Shown here in pieces: positions 49,521-56,411 of a stretch of 64,000 bases of DNA; position 1 is the stretch's first letter; every line of letters starts with the position of its first letter. The stretch comes from Stenotrophomonas sp. ISL-67 (GTDB taxonomy: Bacteria; Pseudomonadota; Gammaproteobacteria; Xanthomonadales; Xanthomonadaceae). The notes beneath the pieces were generated by a model that did not search any database, was not told the origin of the DNA, and saw only the letters and a program-made list of their open reading frames with translations. The translations under genes and the position numbers were made by a program. The DNA is taken from contig NZ_JAGGRL010000005.1 of assembly GCF_018612915.1 (NCBI RefSeq), forward strand, positions 1 to 64,000, written 5' to 3'.

Positions 49521-49637
49521 ACGTGCGCAGGGTCATGGCGGTGACACGCATGGCGATCTACGTGCGCAGGATCATGGCGTTGACACGCATGGCGACCTAC
49601 GTGCGCAGGATCATGGCGTTGACACGCATGGCGTGTC
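49521..49637. repeat. Three tandem copies of a 39 bp repeat
   Basis: Units start at 49521, 49560 and 49599, each opening ACGTGCGCAG and containing GACACGCATGGCG. The first two units contain a CTAC (GTAG in reverse) just before the next unit; the third is extended into a full GTAG palindrome at 49621-49642. The period of 13 codons keeps short frames open on both strands, but no coding signal is seen. Confidence 0.85.
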
Positions 49638-49766: not shown

Positions 49767-51803
49767 TCAAGCGGCCTGCACTTCCTCATACCCGTTGAAG
49801 CGCATGTCGCTCGATGCGCGCCCCTGGGTCAGCGAGCGCAGCGAGGTGGTGTAGCCGGACAACTGCGCCAACGGCGCGTAGCCCACCACTTCCGCACGGC
49901 CGCCCTGGTCCTCGATGGAGGCGATGCGGCCGCTGCGGCGGTTGAGGTCGCCCACCACGTCGCCGACATTCACCGACGGCACGTGGATGGCCACTTCCAT
50001 CACCGGCTCAAGCAGCCGGGTGCCGGCCTGCAGCAGCGCGGCCTTCACCGCTTCGGCACCGGCCCGATGGAAGGCCAGATCGGACGAATCCTTGGCATGG
50101 GTCTGCCCGTCGACCAGCACCACCTCGATGCCCACCACCGGATGGCCACGCGGACCCTCCGACAGCGCGCCACGCACGCCTTTCTCCACCGCGGCCACGA
50201 ACCCGCGCGGGATCACGCCGCCGACGGTGCGGTCGACGAAATGCACCTCGCCGTCCTCGCGTGGGCTGACCTCCAGCACCACCCGTGCGTACTGGCCCTG
50301 GCCGCCGGTCTGCTTGACCACCTTGCCTTCCACGCCCCGTACCGCCTGCTTCAGCGTTTCCTGGTAGGCCACCCGTGGCGCACCGGTTCGAACATTGACG
50401 TTCCATTCGGTGCGCAGCCGTTCGACCATCACCTCCAGGTGCAGCTCGCCCATGCCCCAGACCAGGGTTTCCCCGCTGTCCGCTTCGGTTTCGACGCGGA
50501 ACGACGGATCTTCCTGGGCCAGGCTGGACAGGCCCTGCGCGATGCGGATCAGGTCAGCCGCCTTCTCCGCGGTCAACCGCCACGCCAGCACCGCGTGCTG
50601 CGCCTGGATCGCATCCAGCAGCAGCGGGCGCGAAGGCGCACTCAGCGTTTCACCGCTCACCGCATCCTTCCAGCCCAGTACCGCCACGATGTCACCGGCC
50701 ACGGCCTGCTTGATGTCGTGGGTCTGGTCTGCCTGCACCCGCACCAGGCGGCTGACCCGGCGTCCCTGCGCATGCTGCGAACTGGCCAACGCATCGCCCA
50801 CTTTGAGCGTGCCGGAGTACACCCGCACGAAGCTCAACGCACCGTGGTGCTGGTGCGTGATCTTGAACAGCAGCGCCGCCAGCGGACCGTCCGGGTCCGG
50901 CGGCAGGCTGACCTCGCCATTCTCCTCCGTGGCCACCACGGCCGGCCGATCTTCCGGCGCAGGAAGGTAATCCACGATGGCGTCGAGCAGGGTTTCAATG
51001 CCCTTGCTCTTGAAGGCCGCGCCCGCCAGCACCGGTACACCGGCACCCGCCAGCGTAGCCCGGCGCAACGCCGCGCGCAGCGCGTCTGCCTCCACGGCAC
51101 TGCCGTCCAGCCAGACTTCGGCAAGCAGCTCGTCGTGGTCGGCAACCGATTCGACCAGCGCCGCGCGCCGCGGCTCCCACTCGCCGTGTTCGACGGTGGT
51201 CCATGCGGTGCGGGTCGGCGTGCCGGCCTCGTCCCACTGCACGGTGCTGCGTTCGACCAGGTCGATCCAGCCGTGGAACGTGCTTTCCGCGCCCAATGGC
51301 CAGCCGATCGCCCACGGCCGCGCCTGCAGCTTGTCCTGCAGCTGCGCCAGCACGCGTTCGAACGAGGCGCCGATGCGGTCCATCTTGTTGACGAACGCGA
51401 TCAGCGGCACCCCATGACGACGGGCCTGGTGCCATACGGTTTCCGATTGTGGCTGCACGCCGTCCACGGCAGAGAACACCGCCACCGCGCCATCGAGCAC
51501 GCGCAGCGAACGTTCGACTTCAATGGCGAAGTCGATATGCCCGGGCGTGTCGATCAGGGTCAGATGGTGGGTGGGCTCGCCACGCGGCGCCCAATGCGCC
51601 TGCACGGCGGCCGCGCCGATGGTGATGCCGCGCTCGCGCTCGATCGCCGAGAAGTCGGTGGTGGCCGCGCCATCGTGGACTTCGCCGACGCGATGGATCT
51701 CGCCGGTTTTCCACAGCAGGCGTTCGGTAAGCGTGGTCTTGCCGGCGTCGATGTGGGCAATGATGCCGAGGTTGCGCCGGAGGTGCGGGGTGTGGGTGTT
51801 CAT
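49767..51803 (-). CDS. EF-G paralogue (ribosomal translocase-like GTPase)
   Basis: 678 residues from the ATG at 51803; an upstream in-frame GTG at 51842 is an alternative. GTPase motifs are intact: G1 AHIDAGKTTLTERLLW, G2 ERERGITI, G3 DTPGHIDF, G4 NKMD. Domains II-V follow (VRVYSGTLKVGDAL, GMGELHLEVMVERL, ARVVLEVSPR, MEVAIHVPSVNVGDVVGDLNRR). Somewhat shorter than housekeeping EF-G (about 700) and outside a str operon, so likely the second EF-G or a ribosome-rescue/protection relative. The 300 nt leader has an apparent attenuator. Confidence 0.88.
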   Translation of the reverse strand: MNTHTPHLRRNLGIIAHIDAGKTTLTERLLWKTGEIHRVGEVHDGAATTDFSAIERERGITIGAAAVQAHWAPRGEPTHHLTLIDTPGHIDFAIEVERSLRVLDGAVAVFSAVDGVQPQSETVWHQARRHGVPLIAFVNKMDRIGASFERVLAQLQDKLQARPWAIGWPLGAESTFHGWIDLVERSTVQWDEAGTPTRTAWTTVEHGEWEPRRAALVESVADHDELLAEVWLDGSAVEADALRAALRRATLAGAGVPVLAGAAFKSKGIETLLDAIVDYLPAPEDRPAVVATEENGEVSLPPDPDGPLAALLFKITHQHHGALSFVRVYSGTLKVGDALASSQHAQGRRVSRLVRVQADQTHDIKQAVAGDIVAVLGWKDAVSGETLSAPSRPLLLDAIQAQHAVLAWRLTAEKAADLIRIAQGLSSLAQEDPSFRVETEADSGETLVWGMGELHLEVMVERLRTEWNVNVRTGAPRVAYQETLKQAVRGVEGKVVKQTGGQGQYARVVLEVSPREDGEVHFVDRTVGGVIPRGFVAAVEKGVRGALSEGPRGHPVVGIEVVLVDGQTHAKDSSDLAFHRAGAEAVKAALLQAGTRLLEPVMEVAIHVPSVNVGDVVGDLNRRSGRIASIEDQGGRAEVVGYAPLAQLSGYTTSLRSLTQGRASSDMRFNGYEEVQAA

Positions 51804-51853
51804 GGTCTGGGTCTCGCTGCTGCCATCATCAGGAAGCCGCACGCCGCCGTTGG

Positions 51854-51898
51854 CTAACGGGCGTGCGGCCAGGTTTGGGGCTCGGCGATCTGGTGCAT
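51854..51898 (-). CDS. Candidate micro-ORF in the EF-G paralogue leader, after the terminator
   Basis: A 14-codon frame (MHQIAEPQTWPHAR) whose ATG has an excellent AAGGAG 8 bp upstream. It lies between the leader terminator and the EF-G-like start (51 nt gap). No homologue known to me; expression is inferred only from the ribosome site. Confidence 0.5.
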   Translation of the reverse strand: MHQIAEPQTWPHAR

Positions 51899-51933
51899 GG
51901 CACGTTCTCCTTCATGCGGTTGTAGAAACGAAA

Positions 51934-51954
51934 AGAGCGCCCGATGGGCGCTCT
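51934..51954 (-). terminator. Intrinsic terminator inside the EF-G paralogue leader
   Basis: Perfect 9 bp stem AGAGCGCCC-ATC-GGGCGCTCT followed on the minus strand by TTTTCGTTTC. No supported minus-strand protein gene lies immediately upstream, so it would stop transcripts before the EF-G-like gene. The upstream GGGCGCGTCTG (about 52010-52020) can pair with CAGAGCGCCC, an antiterminator candidate. Confidence 0.72.
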
Positions 51955-51984
51955 GTCTGGGGTCCTGCGGTGATCAGCAATCGA

Positions 51985-52074
51985 TCACCCGCCAGAGGAT
52001 CCGCGAGGCAGACGCGCCCGTCCCGCGAAAGCGCGGGTGCGAGTAAAAAACGTCAGGAGCGGCATCGGGTTCAT
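51985..52074 (-). CDS. Candidate leader peptide of the attenuator
   Basis: A 29-codon frame from the ATG at 52074 (MNPMPLLTFFTRTRAFAGRA onward) ending just before the terminator region. A CCCGCG-CTTT-CGCGGG hairpin and the antiterminator arm lie inside it, so ribosome position could decide the structure. Its ribosome site is weak, and expression is unproven. Confidence 0.4.
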   Translation of the reverse strand: MNPMPLLTFFTRTRAFAGRARLPRGSSGG

Positions 52075-52101
52075 GGCGGTGGTTGAAAGGATCTGGGGCG
52101 A

Positions 52102-52129
52102 ATTCTAGACCTCTGATTCTGGCGTGCAA
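52102..52129 (-). promoter_or_regulatory. Candidate sigma-70 promoter for the EF-G paralogue leader
   Basis: TTGCAC and TAGAAT separated by 16 bp on the minus strand; predicted start near 52095, about 20 nt before the leader peptide ATG. Confidence 0.4.
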
Positions 52130-52311: not shown

Positions 52312-54510
52312 ATGACCCCCTCCCCCGTTTCGTTCCGCCGGTTGCGTCCCAACCTGCTTGCCCTCGCCTGCTGCATCGCCAGCGCTGCCTCACCTGCCGC
52401 CTTCGCGCAGACCGCCACTGCCCTCGATGCGGTGCAGGTCAACGCCTACCGTGCCGCCAACAGCACCAGCGGCGCCACCAAGACCAACACCAGCATTGCC
52501 GAAACGCCGCAATCCATCGCCGTGGTGGAACGCGCCGAACTGGATGCGCGTGGCGTGCAGTCACTCAACGACGCCATGCGCTACGTGGCGGGCGTGAGCC
52601 TGGAGAGCAGCGGCATCGACAACCGCGTGGACGACTTCCGCATCCGCGGTTTCGACGCCGGCAGCTGGGCCAACAACGTAACCCTGGACGGCATGCGCGC
52701 ACCGCAGGGCAGCCAGTGGAACCGCAGCATGTTCGACAGCTGGAACCTGGAACGGGTGGAGGTGCTCAAGGGCCCCTCCGCAGTGATGTACGGCCAGGTC
52801 GCGCCCGGCGGCATGGTCAACCAGGTCAGCAAGACCCCCACCCCGGACCAGCAGCCGCTGCTGCGCCTGGGCGTGGATGCCAACGGCCAGTACAGCGCGG
52901 CCTTCGATGTCGGCACCGGCACCGCCGACGACGCCCATCTGCTGCGCCTGGTCGGCCTGTACCGCGACGGCGACACCCAGATCAAGCACACCGCGCAGGA
53001 GCACTGGTTCCTCGCGCCGAGCTACACCTGGCAGATCGCCGAGCGCACCCGCCTCACCCTGCTGGGCATGTACCAGAAGGACGACGGCGGCTCGACCTAC
53101 CAGTTCCTGCCCATGGCCGGCACGCTCAACGCCACGCCCTACGGCCACATGAAGAACAGCACCTTCATCGGCCAACCGGATTGGAACACCTTCGACCGCA
53201 CGTTGTGGACGGCCGGCTGGATGTTCGAACACCAGTTCAACGACCACCTCACCCTGACCCAGAACGCCCGCCGTACGCACGTCGATTCGCTGTACCGCGG
53301 CGTGGTCACCTTTGGTGCACTCAATGCAGACGGCCGCACCCAGAACCGCCGCGGCGTGCAGGGCACCGGCGATTCCGATGGCGACACCTTCGACACCCGC
53401 CTGCAGGCGCGTTTCAGCACGGGCACGGTTGACCACACCGTCCTGCTGGGCTGGGACTGGCAGCGCGCAGACTGGGAAGGCGTACGCAGCGCGATGACCA
53501 ACCCGCGCGCGATCGACATCTTCGACCCGGTCTATTACCCCTACCAGCCCACCGTCACCACCGAAACGCCCACCGCCGGCATCAACCGCCAGAGCGGTGC
53601 GTACCTGCAGGACCAGCTGGCCGCCGGCAACTGGCGCCTGACCCTGGGCGGCCGCTACGACTGGACCAAGGACGACACCCTGAGCGCCGCCCGGAACATC
53701 GCCACCGGCATCTCCCAGCCCGGCGCGCACAACGTGATCAAGAACGAAGCCTTCACCGGCCGTGCCGGCCTGCTGTACGTGTTCGAGAACGGACTGACCC
53801 CGTACGTGAGCTATGCCGAATCCTTCCAGCCCTCGACAAAATCCCCGCTCGACAGCTACGCCCGGACCGCGTTCGATCCGGTCACCGGTTCGCAGTGGGA
53901 AGCCGGCCTGAAGTACCAGCCCGCCAGCGTCGACGGGCTGGTTACCCTGGCCGTGTACGACCTGCGCCAGCGGGACATGATCGTCGACGATCCGGTGGCA
54001 ACCCACCGCAACTGCGGCGCCACCGGCACCGCCACCTGCTCCATCCAGGGCGACGAAGGTCGCGTGCGCGGCATCGAACTGGAAGGCCGGATCACCCCCA
54101 TCGGCGGCTTGAGCCTGATCGGCGCTGCCTCAAGGATGGACTCGGAAATGCTGACCTCGTCCGCCTACCGGGGCAGGCAGCTGGCCATGGTGCCGGACTA
54201 CAGCGCCTCGTTCTGGGCCGACTACACCTTCCAGGACGGCGCCCTGCGCGGCGTGAGCCTGGCCGCCGGCGCGCGCTACAACGGGGTCAGCTACGGCGAC
54301 AGCGCCAACCTGTACCGCATTCCGTCCTACACCCTGTTCGACGCGGCACTGCGCTACGACCTGGGCCGGTTCGGCAGCACCGACGTCAAGCTGGCGCTCA
54401 ACGCCAGCAACCTGGCCGACAAGCGCTACGTCTCCACCTGCACCGGTGTCTCGTCCTGCTATTACGGCAGCGGCCGCACCGTCACGGCCACGGCAACCTT
54501 CGGCTGGTAG
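52312..54510 (+). CDS. TonB-dependent siderophore receptor
   Basis: 732 residues with a signal peptide (LLALACCIASAASPAAFAQ). The plug (about 45-190) contains IAETPQSIAVVERAELD, VDDFRIRGFDAGSWANNVTL and VEVLKGPSAVMYGQVAPGGM, standard for siderophore receptors of the FhuA/FoxA class. A 22-strand barrel follows and ends in Phe-Gly-Trp (aromatic C-terminus). It imports a ferric chelate in a TonB-dependent way. It converges on an ABC importer operon; a Fur-like site precedes it. Confidence 0.92.
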   Translation: MTPSPVSFRRLRPNLLALACCIASAASPAAFAQTATALDAVQVNAYRAANSTSGATKTNTSIAETPQSIAVVERAELDARGVQSLNDAMRYVAGVSLESSGIDNRVDDFRIRGFDAGSWANNVTLDGMRAPQGSQWNRSMFDSWNLERVEVLKGPSAVMYGQVAPGGMVNQVSKTPTPDQQPLLRLGVDANGQYSAAFDVGTGTADDAHLLRLVGLYRDGDTQIKHTAQEHWFLAPSYTWQIAERTRLTLLGMYQKDDGGSTYQFLPMAGTLNATPYGHMKNSTFIGQPDWNTFDRTLWTAGWMFEHQFNDHLTLTQNARRTHVDSLYRGVVTFGALNADGRTQNRRGVQGTGDSDGDTFDTRLQARFSTGTVDHTVLLGWDWQRADWEGVRSAMTNPRAIDIFDPVYYPYQPTVTTETPTAGINRQSGAYLQDQLAAGNWRLTLGGRYDWTKDDTLSAARNIATGISQPGAHNVIKNEAFTGRAGLLYVFENGLTPYVSYAESFQPSTKSPLDSYARTAFDPVTGSQWEAGLKYQPASVDGLVTLAVYDLRQRDMIVDDPVATHRNCGATGTATCSIQGDEGRVRGIELEGRITPIGGLSLIGAASRMDSEMLTSSAYRGRQLAMVPDYSASFWADYTFQDGALRGVSLAAGARYNGVSYGDSANLYRIPSYTLFDAALRYDLGRFGSTDVKLALNASNLADKRYVSTCTGVSSCYYGSGRTVTATATFGW

Positions 54511-54597: not shown

Positions 54598-55374
54598 TCA
54601 CCCGTTGGAGTCCGCCACCACCACCAGCGGCACATCGCGCTGCGGGTGCCGCAACACCAGCACCGGTTGCTGGTACACGCGTTCGATGTGATCGCGGGTC
54701 AACACCTGGTCGGGCGTGCCATCGGCGGCCACCCTGCCCTGCTCCAGCAGCACGATACGGTCGGCATAGCCTGCAGCCAGGTTCAGATCGTGCAGTACCA
54801 CGATCACGCACGCGCCTGCGTCGGCCAACCCGCGCACCGCGCGCAGCGTGCGCTCCTGGTGGCGAAGGTCCAGCGCCGCGGTCGGCTCATCGAGCAGCAG
54901 CAACGGTGTGGCCTGGGTCAGTACCCGCGCGAAGGTAGATCGCGCCGCTTCGCCGCCGGACAGTGTCTGCACCTCGCGCGCGCGCAGGCCAGTCATTTCT
55001 GACTGGCCCAGCGCCTGCTCCACCAGCGCGGCATCGCACAGCGCATCGGCCGGGTGTGGCAGCCGCCCCATCGCCACGACTTCTTCCACCGTGAAGGCGA
55101 ACCGCACCGCGTGGTCCTGCGGCATCACCGCGCGCTCGCGCGCCAGCGCCATCGCCTTCCACTGCGCGATGGGCTGGTCGTGCAGCACCACCTGCCCCGC
55201 GTCGGCCGCCAGGTCGCCACTGGCCACCGCCAGCAGGGTCGACTTTCCCGCCCCGTTCGGGCCGACCAGCGCGGTCAGCGTACCTGGGACGAAGCCCAGG
55301 TGGATGTCGTGCAGGATGGTGCGCTCCCCGAAGCGCACCGCCACCCCGTCCAGCTGAAGGAACGGCGCCGTCAT
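54598..55374 (-). CDS. hmuV: Iron-complex/haem ABC transporter ATPase, HmuV-like
   Basis: 258 residues from the ATG at 55374, which overlaps the permease stop (ATGA). Walker A GPNGAGKSTLLAVASGDL, the family segment RERAVMPQDHAVRFAFTVEE, signature TLSGGE, Walker B LLLLDEPTAALD and switch His VVLHDLNLAAGYADR match HmuV/FecE-type ATPases. Powers import of the iron complex across the inner membrane. Confidence 0.88.
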   Translation of the reverse strand: MTAPFLQLDGVAVRFGERTILHDIHLGFVPGTLTALVGPNGAGKSTLLAVASGDLAADAGQVVLHDQPIAQWKAMALARERAVMPQDHAVRFAFTVEEVVAMGRLPHPADALCDAALVEQALGQSEMTGLRAREVQTLSGGEAARSTFARVLTQATPLLLLDEPTAALDLRHQERTLRAVRGLADAGACVIVVLHDLNLAAGYADRIVLLEQGRVAADGTPDQVLTRDHIERVYQQPVLVLRHPQRDVPLVVVADSNG

Positions 55375-56411
55375 ACCGTGCCACTCCGGCGCTGGTGCAG
55401 CACCAGCCACAGGAAGAACGGTGCGCCCAATGCGGCCGAGAACAACCCCAGCGGAATCTCCGCCGGTGGATCCAGCGTGCGTGCGGCCGTATCGGCCACC
55501 ACGATCAGCAGCGCGCCGGTCACCGCCGACACCGGCAGCAACCAGCGGTGCCCCGGGCCCACCAGCATGCGCACCACGTGCGGCACCACCAGCCCGACGA
55601 AGCCGATCGAGCCGGCAAACGCCACCGCCGCACCGACCAGCAGGGCACTGAAGGCGATCAGCTTCAACCGCGTGCGCTTCACGTCCAGCCCCAGGTGTTG
55701 CGCCTGGCGCTCCCCCAGCGCCAGCATGTCCAGCGGTATGGACATGCGCAGCAACGCCAACGTGCCCAGCACGAACACCGGCAGCGCCGCCGCCACATCG
55801 GCCCAGTCCGCCTGGGCCAGCGAGCCCATCTGCCAGAACACCAGCGACTGCAGTTCGCTTTCGCTGGCGATGTAGGTCAGGAAACCGATGGCCGCCGAGC
55901 AGAACGCCGCCATCGCAATACCCACCAGCAGCAACGTGGCCGTGCCGCTGTTGCGCCCCGGCCGCGCCAGCGCGTAGGTCAGGCTGATCGCCGCCGCACC
56001 GCCGGCGAACGCCGCCAGCGGCAGTGTCCAGCCGCCCACGCTGCCGGCGCCCAGTACGATGGCCGCCACCGCGCCGAGTGATGCGCCCTGGGTCACCCCC
56101 ACGATGCCCGGGTCGGCCAGCGGATTACCGAACAGCCCCTGCAGGCTGGCACCGGCCATGGCCAGCGACGCGCCCACCAGCGCGCCCAGCAGCGCACGTG
56201 GAATGCGCAGGTTCCAGACCACCGCCATGTCGCGCTGGCTCACCTGCGAGGGGTCGAGCATACCCAGCTTGACCGCCACCGCCTGCACTACCTCCAGCGG
56301 TGGCAGGCGCAGTGGCCCGACCGCGAACGAAGCCAGGATCGCGCCCAGCAGTGCCAGCGCCATCATCGCCAGCACCCATCCGCCCGCACGTCGGCGCGTA
56401 GTGCGTTCCAT
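55371..56411 (-). CDS. hmuU: Iron-complex/haem ABC transporter permease, FecCD family
   Basis: 346 residues (GTG one codon earlier possible). About ten membrane segments. FecCD hallmarks: RIPRALLGALVGASLAMAGA, LQGLFGNPLADPGIVGVTQG, the coupling segment RTRLKLIAFSALLVG and SIGFVGLVVPHVVRML. Works as a dimer with the HmuV-like ATPase. Follows the binding protein gene after 13 bp. Confidence 0.9.
   Translation of the reverse strand: MERTTRRRAGGWVLAMMALALLGAILASFAVGPLRLPPLEVVQAVAVKLGMLDPSQVSQRDMAVVWNLRIPRALLGALVGASLAMAGASLQGLFGNPLADPGIVGVTQGASLGAVAAIVLGAGSVGGWTLPLAAFAGGAAAISLTYALARPGRNSGTATLLLVGIAMAAFCSAAIGFLTYIASESELQSLVFWQMGSLAQADWADVAAALPVFVLGTLALLRMSIPLDMLALGERQAQHLGLDVKRTRLKLIAFSALLVGAAVAFAGSIGFVGLVVPHVVRMLVGPGHRWLLPVSAVTGALLIVVADTAARTLDPPAEIPLGLFSAALGAPFFLWLVLHQRRSGTV

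Follow-up and report, generated by a model that had tools for sequence, protein, structure and literature searches.

A probable ribosome-mediated transcription attenuator and a conserved micro-ORF/pseudoknot module in the leader of a second elongation factor G gene of Stenotrophomonas

Organization of the EF-G2 locus

The window, i.e. the whole stretch of 64,000 nucleotides of Stenotrophomonas sp. ISL-67 that was analyzed (contig NZ_JAGGRL010000005.1), contains on its minus strand a gene for a paralogue of elongation factor G (EF-G2), preceded by a leader composed of several elements (Table 1). A candidate promoter, a leader frame, a terminator, a micro-ORF and the gene itself had been named in an initial annotation, and all of them are present at the positions listed. 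The proposed complementarity of GGGCGC-g-TCTG to the terminator was confirmed (52019-52009 with 51955-51946). Two features were new compared to this annotation, a hairpin masking the antiterminator strand and a pseudoknot module.

Table 1. Features of the EF-G2 leader and gene in the window
Feature	Positions	Strand	Description and basis
EF-G2 leader	51804-52129	-	326 nt upstream of the EF-G2 start
Promoter-like site	52102-52129	-	TTGCAC-16-TAGAAT; sequence reading
Leader peptide frame	51985-52074	-	MNPMPLLTFFTRTRAFAGRARLPRGSSGG; ATG, 29 codons plus stop; P-L-L at codons 5-7
P1 hairpin	52022-52037	-	CCCGCG-CTTT-CGCGGG; just upstream of the antiterminator strand; sequence reading
P2 hairpin masking the antiterminator strand	52008-52026	-	52026-52019 pairs with 52014-52008; RNAalifold
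Antiterminator 5' strand (R2)	52009-52019	-	GGGCGC-g-TCTG; complement of R3 CAGAGCGCCC
Small hairpin	51969-51989	-	GGTGATC...GATCACC; encloses the leader stop codon; sequence reading
Intrinsic terminator (R3:R4)	51931-51955	-	AGAGCGCCC-ATC-GGGCGCTCT plus T-run; sequence reading
R3	51946-51955	-	Terminator 5' arm and also antiterminator 3' strand
Micro-ORF Shine-Dalgarno sequence	51906-51912	-	AAGGAGA; followed by the strongly conserved spacer ACGTGCC
Micro-ORF	51854-51898	-	MHQIAEPQTWPHAR; ATG, 14 codons plus stop in the window
Pseudoknot stem 1	51837-51868	-	51868-51860 pairs with 51845-51837
Pseudoknot stem 2	51822-51854	-	Loop GCCAAC (51854-51849) with 51827-51822; GATGGC here, one mismatch
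EF-G paralogue EF-G2	49767-51803	-	678 aa; ATG at 51803; presumed controlled gene

The TCTAGAAT/TCTACAAT portion of the promoter-like site is, as judged by eye, kept in most Stenotrophomonas leaders, and the sequence is not preserved in the leaders L010 and L166-L168 and in other genera. Just 20 nt lie in the window between the T-run of the terminator and the GGAG of the micro-ORF Shine-Dalgarno (SD) sequence, which leaves little space for a promoter downstream of the terminator. The leader ATG of S. maltophilia-type leaders such as L026 begins approximately 8 nt past the -10 hexamer TAGAAT. Due to this short distance, the leader mRNA of the S. maltophilia-type may be leaderless, starting at its own AUG. 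By eye, a hairpin comparable to GGTGATC...GATCACC also exists in rhizophila-like relatives, and the P1 hairpin seems to be re-formed in a different register in some other genera.

The surroundings of the gene were inspected as well. A plus-strand frame (52312-54510) resembling by eye a TonB-dependent siderophore receptor is arranged back-to-back with the EF-G2 promoter and is followed by a minus-strand frame (54598-55410) similar by eye to the ATPase of an ABC-type importer. Just 3' of the EF-G2 stop codon, a tandem array (49521-49633) comprises 2.9 copies of a 39-bp unit with 95% match.

The EF-G2 protein

EF-G2 passes the cut-off of the EF-G model TIGR00484 (731.5 bits vs 659.4) and possesses the EF-G domains in Pfam. 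A tetracycline ribosome-protection protein was considered and rejected (NF012153, 359.2 bits vs a cut-off of 775). Of the likeness to ribosome-protection genes that the initial annotation had drawn, the leader attenuation is supported, while the gene itself scores as an EF-G. The protein is 47% identical to FusA of the same genome (45-47% across comparisons) and its nearest named relative is an 84% identical protein of S. rhizophila. A midpoint-rooted tree of 79 EF-Gs unites the 23 EF-G2 proteins in a single clade (support 1.0) with a long stem (0.87, compared to a mean branch of 0.13). The other 56 members were the genome's FusA and the best matches by similarity, and the tree is silent on the deeper origin of the clade. 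All eight Stenotrophomonas genomes with an S. maltophilia-type leader encode exactly two EF-Gs (E up to 1e-60), FusA and EF-G2. Jones et al. (2017) reportedly observed in S. maltophilia an additional fusA-like gene that was strongly upregulated upon loss of fusA1. Since just two EF-Gs occur in the 8/8 S. maltophilia-type genomes, EF-G2 is very probably the FusA2 of these authors, an assignment made by gene counting and not by locus tag.

Mutations conferring argyrin resistance are P414S, S417L, S459F, P486S, L663Q, T671A and Y683C (excerpt of PMC3438169). When these residue numbers were transferred by hand count through an alignment with E. coli EF-G, EF-G2 revealed changes from P to Q at 412 (23/23), from P to A at 414 (19/23), from S/A to W at 459 (23/23) and from Y/F to S/A at 683 (23/23); positions 486, 663 and 671 are unchanged, and the residue at 417 is A in 12 proteins and S in the other 11. 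Position 412, which we take to be a fusidic-acid hot spot, is also one of 25 columns, several of them in switch I, at which EF-G2 deviates from a residue that is near-invariant in the 56 other EF-Gs. By eye, the P-loop, the DTPGH motif and the motifs of domain IV seem intact. With its rebuilt domain III/V pocket, EF-G2 should resist argyrin-type EF-G inhibitors. On the other hand, the argyrin region may have changed through general divergence instead of being driven by a drug, because the 25 near-invariant columns also differ in EF-G2. Two papers list wild-type S. maltophilia among the argyrin-susceptible bacteria (excerpts of PMC13392398 and PMC6902895), hence EF-G2 is no effective shield against argyrin while FusA1 is present. 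In susceptible S. maltophilia, argyrin resistance arose by inactivation of fusA1 together with overexpression of FusA2 (PMC6902895, excerpt). An unspecified 'elongation factor G' is also named in a biofilm table (PMC7688217, excerpt).

Distribution of the leader and the gene

Altogether 107 leaders from two families were examined, 103 of which are distinct. Of the latter, 84 were obtained via the protein alone and 19 via matches of R1, a covariance model built on the downstream half of the leader; in these 19 leaders, the presence of the micro-ORF follows by construction. The terminator and a micro-ORF with SD sequence are present in 103/103. Among 395 family genomes, 73 contain a strong match of R1 (E of 2.5e-17 or lower), and the EF-G2 protein was likewise detected in 73 of the 395 (E up to 1e-190). 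The two sets of genomes are the same according to a comparison of the lists by eye, and the coordinates abut in the rows compared. Leaders were read for 14 of the 33 EF-G2 genomes newly found in this set, leaving out those of 19 among the 73. Nine family genomes lacking EF-G2 yielded weak R1 matches only (E 6e-4 to 0.01), which were treated as chance, as was a weak second match in genome G387. Judged by these 395 genomes, leader and EF-G2 gene are shown to travel together in a one-to-one association.

Of 91 Stenotrophomonas genomes, 69 encode EF-G2 (E up to 1e-200), as do 19 of 149 genomes sampled from the family. At a threshold of 1e-4, R1 matched 27 of 299 genomes of the order, two of them from another family. 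Five of 117 genomes sampled from this second family have a match and in all five, the leader peptide, terminator, micro-ORF and pseudoknot were recognized by eye before EF-G2. Their leader peptides contain P-L-L in four cases and R-L-L in one. A genome-wide regulon of the R1 element was rejected since there is one strong match only (E 3e-26), the next best having an E of 0.35. The 14-nt micro-ORF SD motif has one exact and one single-mismatch occurrence in the window's genome (76% complete). No Rfam family matched the window at gathering score, and the leader gave only two sub-threshold Rfam matches, both on the opposite strand. Together, the micro-ORF and the pseudoknot represent a conserved RNA element without a match in Rfam.

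Terminator, antiterminator and leader peptide

In 40 aligned leaders, the terminator stem is paired in 320/320 cells and two of its pairs are changed on both sides. The six core pairs R2:R3 of the antiterminator are paired in 239/240 cells, while the outer TCTG/CAGA pairs are disrupted in 8-14 of the 40 leaders. The antiterminator pair 74-155 is changed from C-G to U-A in 14/40 leaders, together with the terminator partner. As these 14 are all the non-Stenotrophomonas leaders among the 40, the change may be a single event that was counted many times. Shuffles reached the covariation score and the percentage of paired cells of the terminator and the antiterminator in 0/500 each, the count of both-side changes in 199/500 (terminator) and 457/500 (antiterminator), and the pair types in 500/500 for both.

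The complementarity of R2 was also assessed leader by leader. Among 101 located leaders, 98 contain at nt 50-78 a 6/6 complement (G-U allowed) of their own terminator 5' arm, two (L206, L216) of the 103 being unlocated and the start of L105 mis-assigned by the script. The complement lies at offset 55 in 89 of the 101. L161 and L224 contain a 5/6 complement, and L122 and L168 attain 6/6 only two bases further on. At fixed offsets more than 12 nt away from 55 (range -10 to 109), the fraction of leaders with a 6/6 match was 0.00, in a test that used an internal Met as start in approximately 18 of 102 leaders and thus put their R2 site at offset 46. A free consensus fold of the 40 leaders by RNAalifold predicted the P2 hairpin, in which the 3' part of R2 is paired with the sequence just upstream; its pair 68-78 is A-U in 18, G-C in 14, G-U in 5 and broken in 3 leaders. 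Since the 5' arm of P2 overlaps the P1 hairpin, the leader contains a four-step chain of P1, P2, antiterminator and terminator.

A pattern search retrieved ATG, three codons and Pro-Leu-Leu in 84/84 distinct Xanthomonadaceae leaders, each with an intact frame of 28-36 codons. The only length changes ahead of R2 among the 84 are +3 nt (L021, L022) and +12 nt (L018). P5-L6-L7 is invariant in 45/45 distinct nucleotide sequences even though L6 uses four synonymous codons, which argues for selection on the peptide at P-L-L. Codons 14-22 are also conserved, which cannot be credited to the peptide because the nucleotides there form hairpins. The coding signature of codons 2-17 is only weak (mean entropy of 0.52, 0.80 and 0.86 bits for the first, second and third codon position), and the anti-SD energy of the leader peptide is non-uniform (mean -3.6, sd 2.8, n=83). 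From the conservation of the frame we infer that the leader peptide is translated, an assumption in view of the non-uniform SD sequence. Macrolide-type arrest leaders contain R-x-R at early stall codons; here, the early conserved residues are P-L-L, and R-x-R sits at codons 19-21, inside R2, with none at early codons. In 18 of the 45 distinct sequences (S. maltophilia group and L016), codons 19-21 read R-A-C or R-A-Y. Many Stenotrophomonas leaders have F-F at codons 9-10, where Phe is not kept in other genera.

The initial annotation had suggested looking for conserved leader codons and covariation of both stems in an alignment of Stenotrophomonas leaders. The codons are borne out by P-L-L in 84/84 leaders and the frame of 28-36 codons. 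The stems are borne out as far as pairing is concerned (320/320 and 239/240), with the reservation that the change in the antiterminator possibly stems from one event.

Folding with a ribosome at defined codons

The native leaders (101 of the 103 distinct ones) were folded to the end of R3 with a ribosome footprint of 28 nt placed at chosen codons. The mean probability of the antiterminator was 0.93, 0.60, 0.91 and 0.90 with the ribosome at codons 3, 5, 7 and 9, and 0.79, 0.82 and 0.85 at codons 11, 13 and 15. It was 0.02 at codon 17, 0.01 at codon 19, 0.00 at codons 21-25, 0.08 at codon 27 and 0.17 at codon 29. With the ribosome at codon 5, just 57/101 leaders exceeded a probability of 0.5. 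A smaller footprint gave the same switch with more recovery at codons 25-29 (0.24-0.31). Without any ribosome, the mean probability was already 0.55, so that untranslated leaders would leak. When R4 was included at equilibrium (24 leaders, R2 being mis-placed in one, L168), the mean probability of the terminator was 0.55-0.78 with the ribosome at codons 3-15. As the terminator is thus favoured on average, the switch must be kinetic and decided while R3 emerges. The folding supports a switch by ribosome position in the model, and given the assumptions on footprint, coupling and equilibrium, it is a consistency test and not a proof.

The micro-ORF and the pseudoknot

The start region of the micro-ORF (GGAGAACGTGCC-ATG/GTG or a close variant) was found in 103/103 distinct leaders, with ATG in 89 and GTG in 14. 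Its anti-SD duplex is strong and uniform (mean -8.6 kcal/mol, sd 0.3, n=103), compared to -3.8 for the EF-G2 start. The strong ribosome site described in the initial annotation thereby recurs throughout, but the 14 codons also given there are atypical. The usual micro-ORF has nine codons and ends just ahead of the pseudoknot, the stop codon being located before stem 1 in 78 leaders, within stem 1 or its loop in 23 and beyond it in 2. The 14-codon version, in which TAG is replaced by TGG, belongs mainly to the rhizophila-like clade. The stop codon before stem 1 is also lost in scattered relatives (L027, L134, L135, L109), where the stop moves into or past the pseudoknot while the start and SD sequence of the micro-ORF remain intact. 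A programmed frameshift or a stop read-through from the micro-ORF into EF-G2 was rejected since the micro-ORF occurs in all three frames relative to the gene (41, 45 and 17 of 103).

Between the micro-ORF and the EF-G2 start, the RNA can form an H-type pseudoknot with a 10-bp stem 1, whose loop GCCAAC pairs with a downstream GTTGGC. In stem 1, 6/10 pairs are changed on both sides and 94.2% of the cells are paired (40 leaders); shuffles reached the both-side count in 1/500, the pair types in 73/500 and the covariation score in 0/500. Other genera vary even the outer pairs of this stem, as judged by eye. Stem 2 pairs fully in 102/103 distinct leaders (3 via one G-U) and is near-invariant in sequence (40 leaders), which leaves covariation nothing to measure. 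The window is the single exception, since its strand 51827-51822 reads GATGGC and not GTTGGC as in the other 102. This is either a true mutation or an assembly error in the 76%-complete genome. Alternatively, GTTGGC can form four pairs with GCCA at the start of the micro-ORF, which are kept in 40/40 leaders.

Depending on the leader, 20 to 239 nt separate the T-run from the SD sequence of the micro-ORF. Because no fixed spacing is required, the attenuator module and the micro-ORF/pseudoknot module may act separately. The 239 nt of L163 include unread bases, and the spacers of L142, L161, L164 and L159 have roughly 100 nt or more, that of L161 being apparently repetitive by eye. These leaders with a long spacer are of the S. 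maltophilia-type, and both modules tolerate it.

Discussion

To account for the arrangement upstream of EF-G2, it is probable that the leader is a ribosome-mediated transcription attenuator which responds to ribosome speed or EF-G activity and controls a back-up EF-G. A ribosome-controlled attenuator had already been put forward in the initial annotation, and it is the reading best supported by the conserved frame, the in-frame length changes, P-L-L, the strands changing together and the folding. Transcription would begin at the 52.1-kb promoter and a ribosome would follow on the leader peptide. At normal translocation, the ribosome would cover R2 (codons 19-22) during the synthesis of R3 and R4 by RNA polymerase; R3 could then pair with R4 and transcription would stop. 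A slow ribosome, or one stalled early near Pro-Leu-Leu (codons 5-9), would allow P1 to stand and leave R2 free to pair with the nascent R3, whereupon the terminator would fail and EF-G2 would be transcribed. The complementarity of R2 and R3 and its conservation are direct results of the comparison, while the order of these events is a proposal that the folding supports. In nature, the leader would most likely respond to low EF-G activity brought about by loss, depletion or inhibition of FusA1. Fewer working EF-Gs would result in slower ribosomes on the leader and thus in read-through into EF-G2. Impaired translocation as a signal, suggested from the start, fits the overexpression of FusA2 in S. 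maltophilia upon inactivation of fusA1 (PMC6902895, excerpt).

On the mRNA that passes the terminator, the strongly initiated micro-ORF, which ends at the pseudoknot in front of the weak EF-G2 start, would set the level of translation. The structure of this module is supported by comparison, with covariation in stem 1, and its function is a proposal. Our leading guess is that ribosomes finishing the micro-ORF control the initiation of EF-G2. It is conceivable, albeit rather doubtful, that the leader senses both slow translocation, by the leader peptide and antiterminator, and poor ribosome recycling after termination, by the micro-ORF and pseudoknot, where unrecycled ribosomes would restart at EF-G2. 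If both jobs of EF-G were sensed, the cell would rebuild exactly the missing activity in a closed loop on EF-G.

Other explanations were weighed against a sensor of ribosome speed. M-x3-P-L-L might be a drug-specific arrest peptide that stalls the ribosome only with a drug bound to the tunnel or the centre, EF-G2 being a resistance factor like HflXr of Listeria. P-L-L is indeed conserved as amino acids and stands at about the chain length at which drugs binding the tunnel commonly act. Moreover, HflXr, a translational GTPase with a housekeeping copy, is under the control of a leader peptide and attenuation (PMC6310831, excerpt). However, the early codons are devoid of R-x-R, and the R-x-R at codons 19-21 lies in R2 and is absent in 18/45 sequences. 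Furthermore, the reported overexpression accompanies the loss of FusA1, albeit in argyrin-selected mutants (PMC6902895, excerpt), and we regard a drug-specific arrest as unlikely. Another explanation concerns the downstream module, whose pseudoknot might be an autogenous translational operator that blocks the EF-G2 start when bound by EF-G2 itself, by a ribosomal protein or by a small molecule, with a plain leaky terminator upstream. Stem 2 is near-invariant, as a binding site should be. This would not account for the terminator, R2 and the conservation of the leader frame, and a bare binding site does not need the micro-ORF SD sequence and start that are kept in 103/103 leaders. Ribosomal-protein operators may be pseudoknots; for the EF-G2 leader, such an operator is nevertheless quite improbable. 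Similarly little credit can be given to a terminator without ribosome control, which would lower the basal transcript next to a leader frame conserved for another reason, e.g. a small functional peptide. Full-length folding favours the terminator and the number of pairs that change together does not by itself exceed what shuffles yield, but R2 is complementary (6/6) to the leader's own R3 in 98/101 leaders and tracks the G-to-A change in R3, and no equivalent match exists at fixed offsets elsewhere in the leader. Finally, an attenuator of the trp/leu type that reads charged tRNA at Leu, Pro or Phe codons is highly implausible despite P-L-L (and F-F in many Stenotrophomonas) ahead of a trp-like chain of alternative hairpins, since only two adjacent Leu codons are conserved, Phe 9-10 is not kept in other genera and an obvious connection of an EF-G with the supply of amino acids is lacking.

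The attenuator responding to ribosome speed would provide a concrete cis mechanism for the reported switch of S. maltophilia to a second EF-G on loss of the main one; a description of the mechanism of this takeover was not found in the literature searched. If true, an attenuator guards a core elongation factor and constitutes a ready biosensor of translocation speed. It would also matter for argyrin and other inhibitors of EF-G, the drug site being rebuilt in the spare enzyme.

Attenuators of the trp type consist of a chain of mutually exclusive hairpins that is read by the position of the ribosome. The EF-G2 leader has such a chain, but lacks a run of codons for one amino acid, its likely signal being translocation or ribosome speed. 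In the repY-repZ leader of IncI-type plasmids, a translated micro-ORF and a pseudoknot are located just before a weakly initiated gene. The EF-G2 leader is similar in having a micro-ORF and a pseudoknot before a weak start, while repY-repZ is an unrelated control of plasmid replication; titles on this pseudoknot leader are cited in PMC10724649 (excerpt). A second EF-G is also known from P. aeruginosa, where EF-G1A and EF-G1B have separate roles in vitro (PMC3832671, excerpt), and from Bacteroides, which possesses another second EF-G gene, FusA2 (PMC6989115). Unlike the P. aeruginosa copies, which are reported to be 80% identical, EF-G2 shares 45-47% identity with FusA and stands in a separate clade. 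FusA2 of S. maltophilia (Jones et al. 2017, doi 10.1128/aac.02400-16, cited in PMC6902895) is very probably the same gene as EF-G2, and the citing passage names no leader, induction mechanism or conservation. A survey of premature terminators mentions, in the excerpt consulted, leaders of rpsL/fusA operons and not the EF-G2 leader (PMC2965389). In the literature searched on EF-G attenuation, on leaders of Stenotrophomonas and Xanthomonas, on induction of EF-G paralogues and on argyrin and FusA2, subscription papers being mostly outside this scope, no description of the EF-G2 leader was found.

As far as the excerpt of PMC6310831 goes, the closest precedent is hflXr/rli80 of Listeria monocytogenes, which likewise combines a second copy of a housekeeping translational GTPase with leader-peptide attenuation and a terminator/antiterminator pair. 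There, the GTPase is HflX, the leader has 14 aa with RLR, lincomycin and erythromycin are the signal and the host is Gram-positive. By contrast, the system described here comprises an EF-G, a P-L-L leader of 28-36 codons without RLR at the presumed stall, and an additional micro-ORF/pseudoknot.
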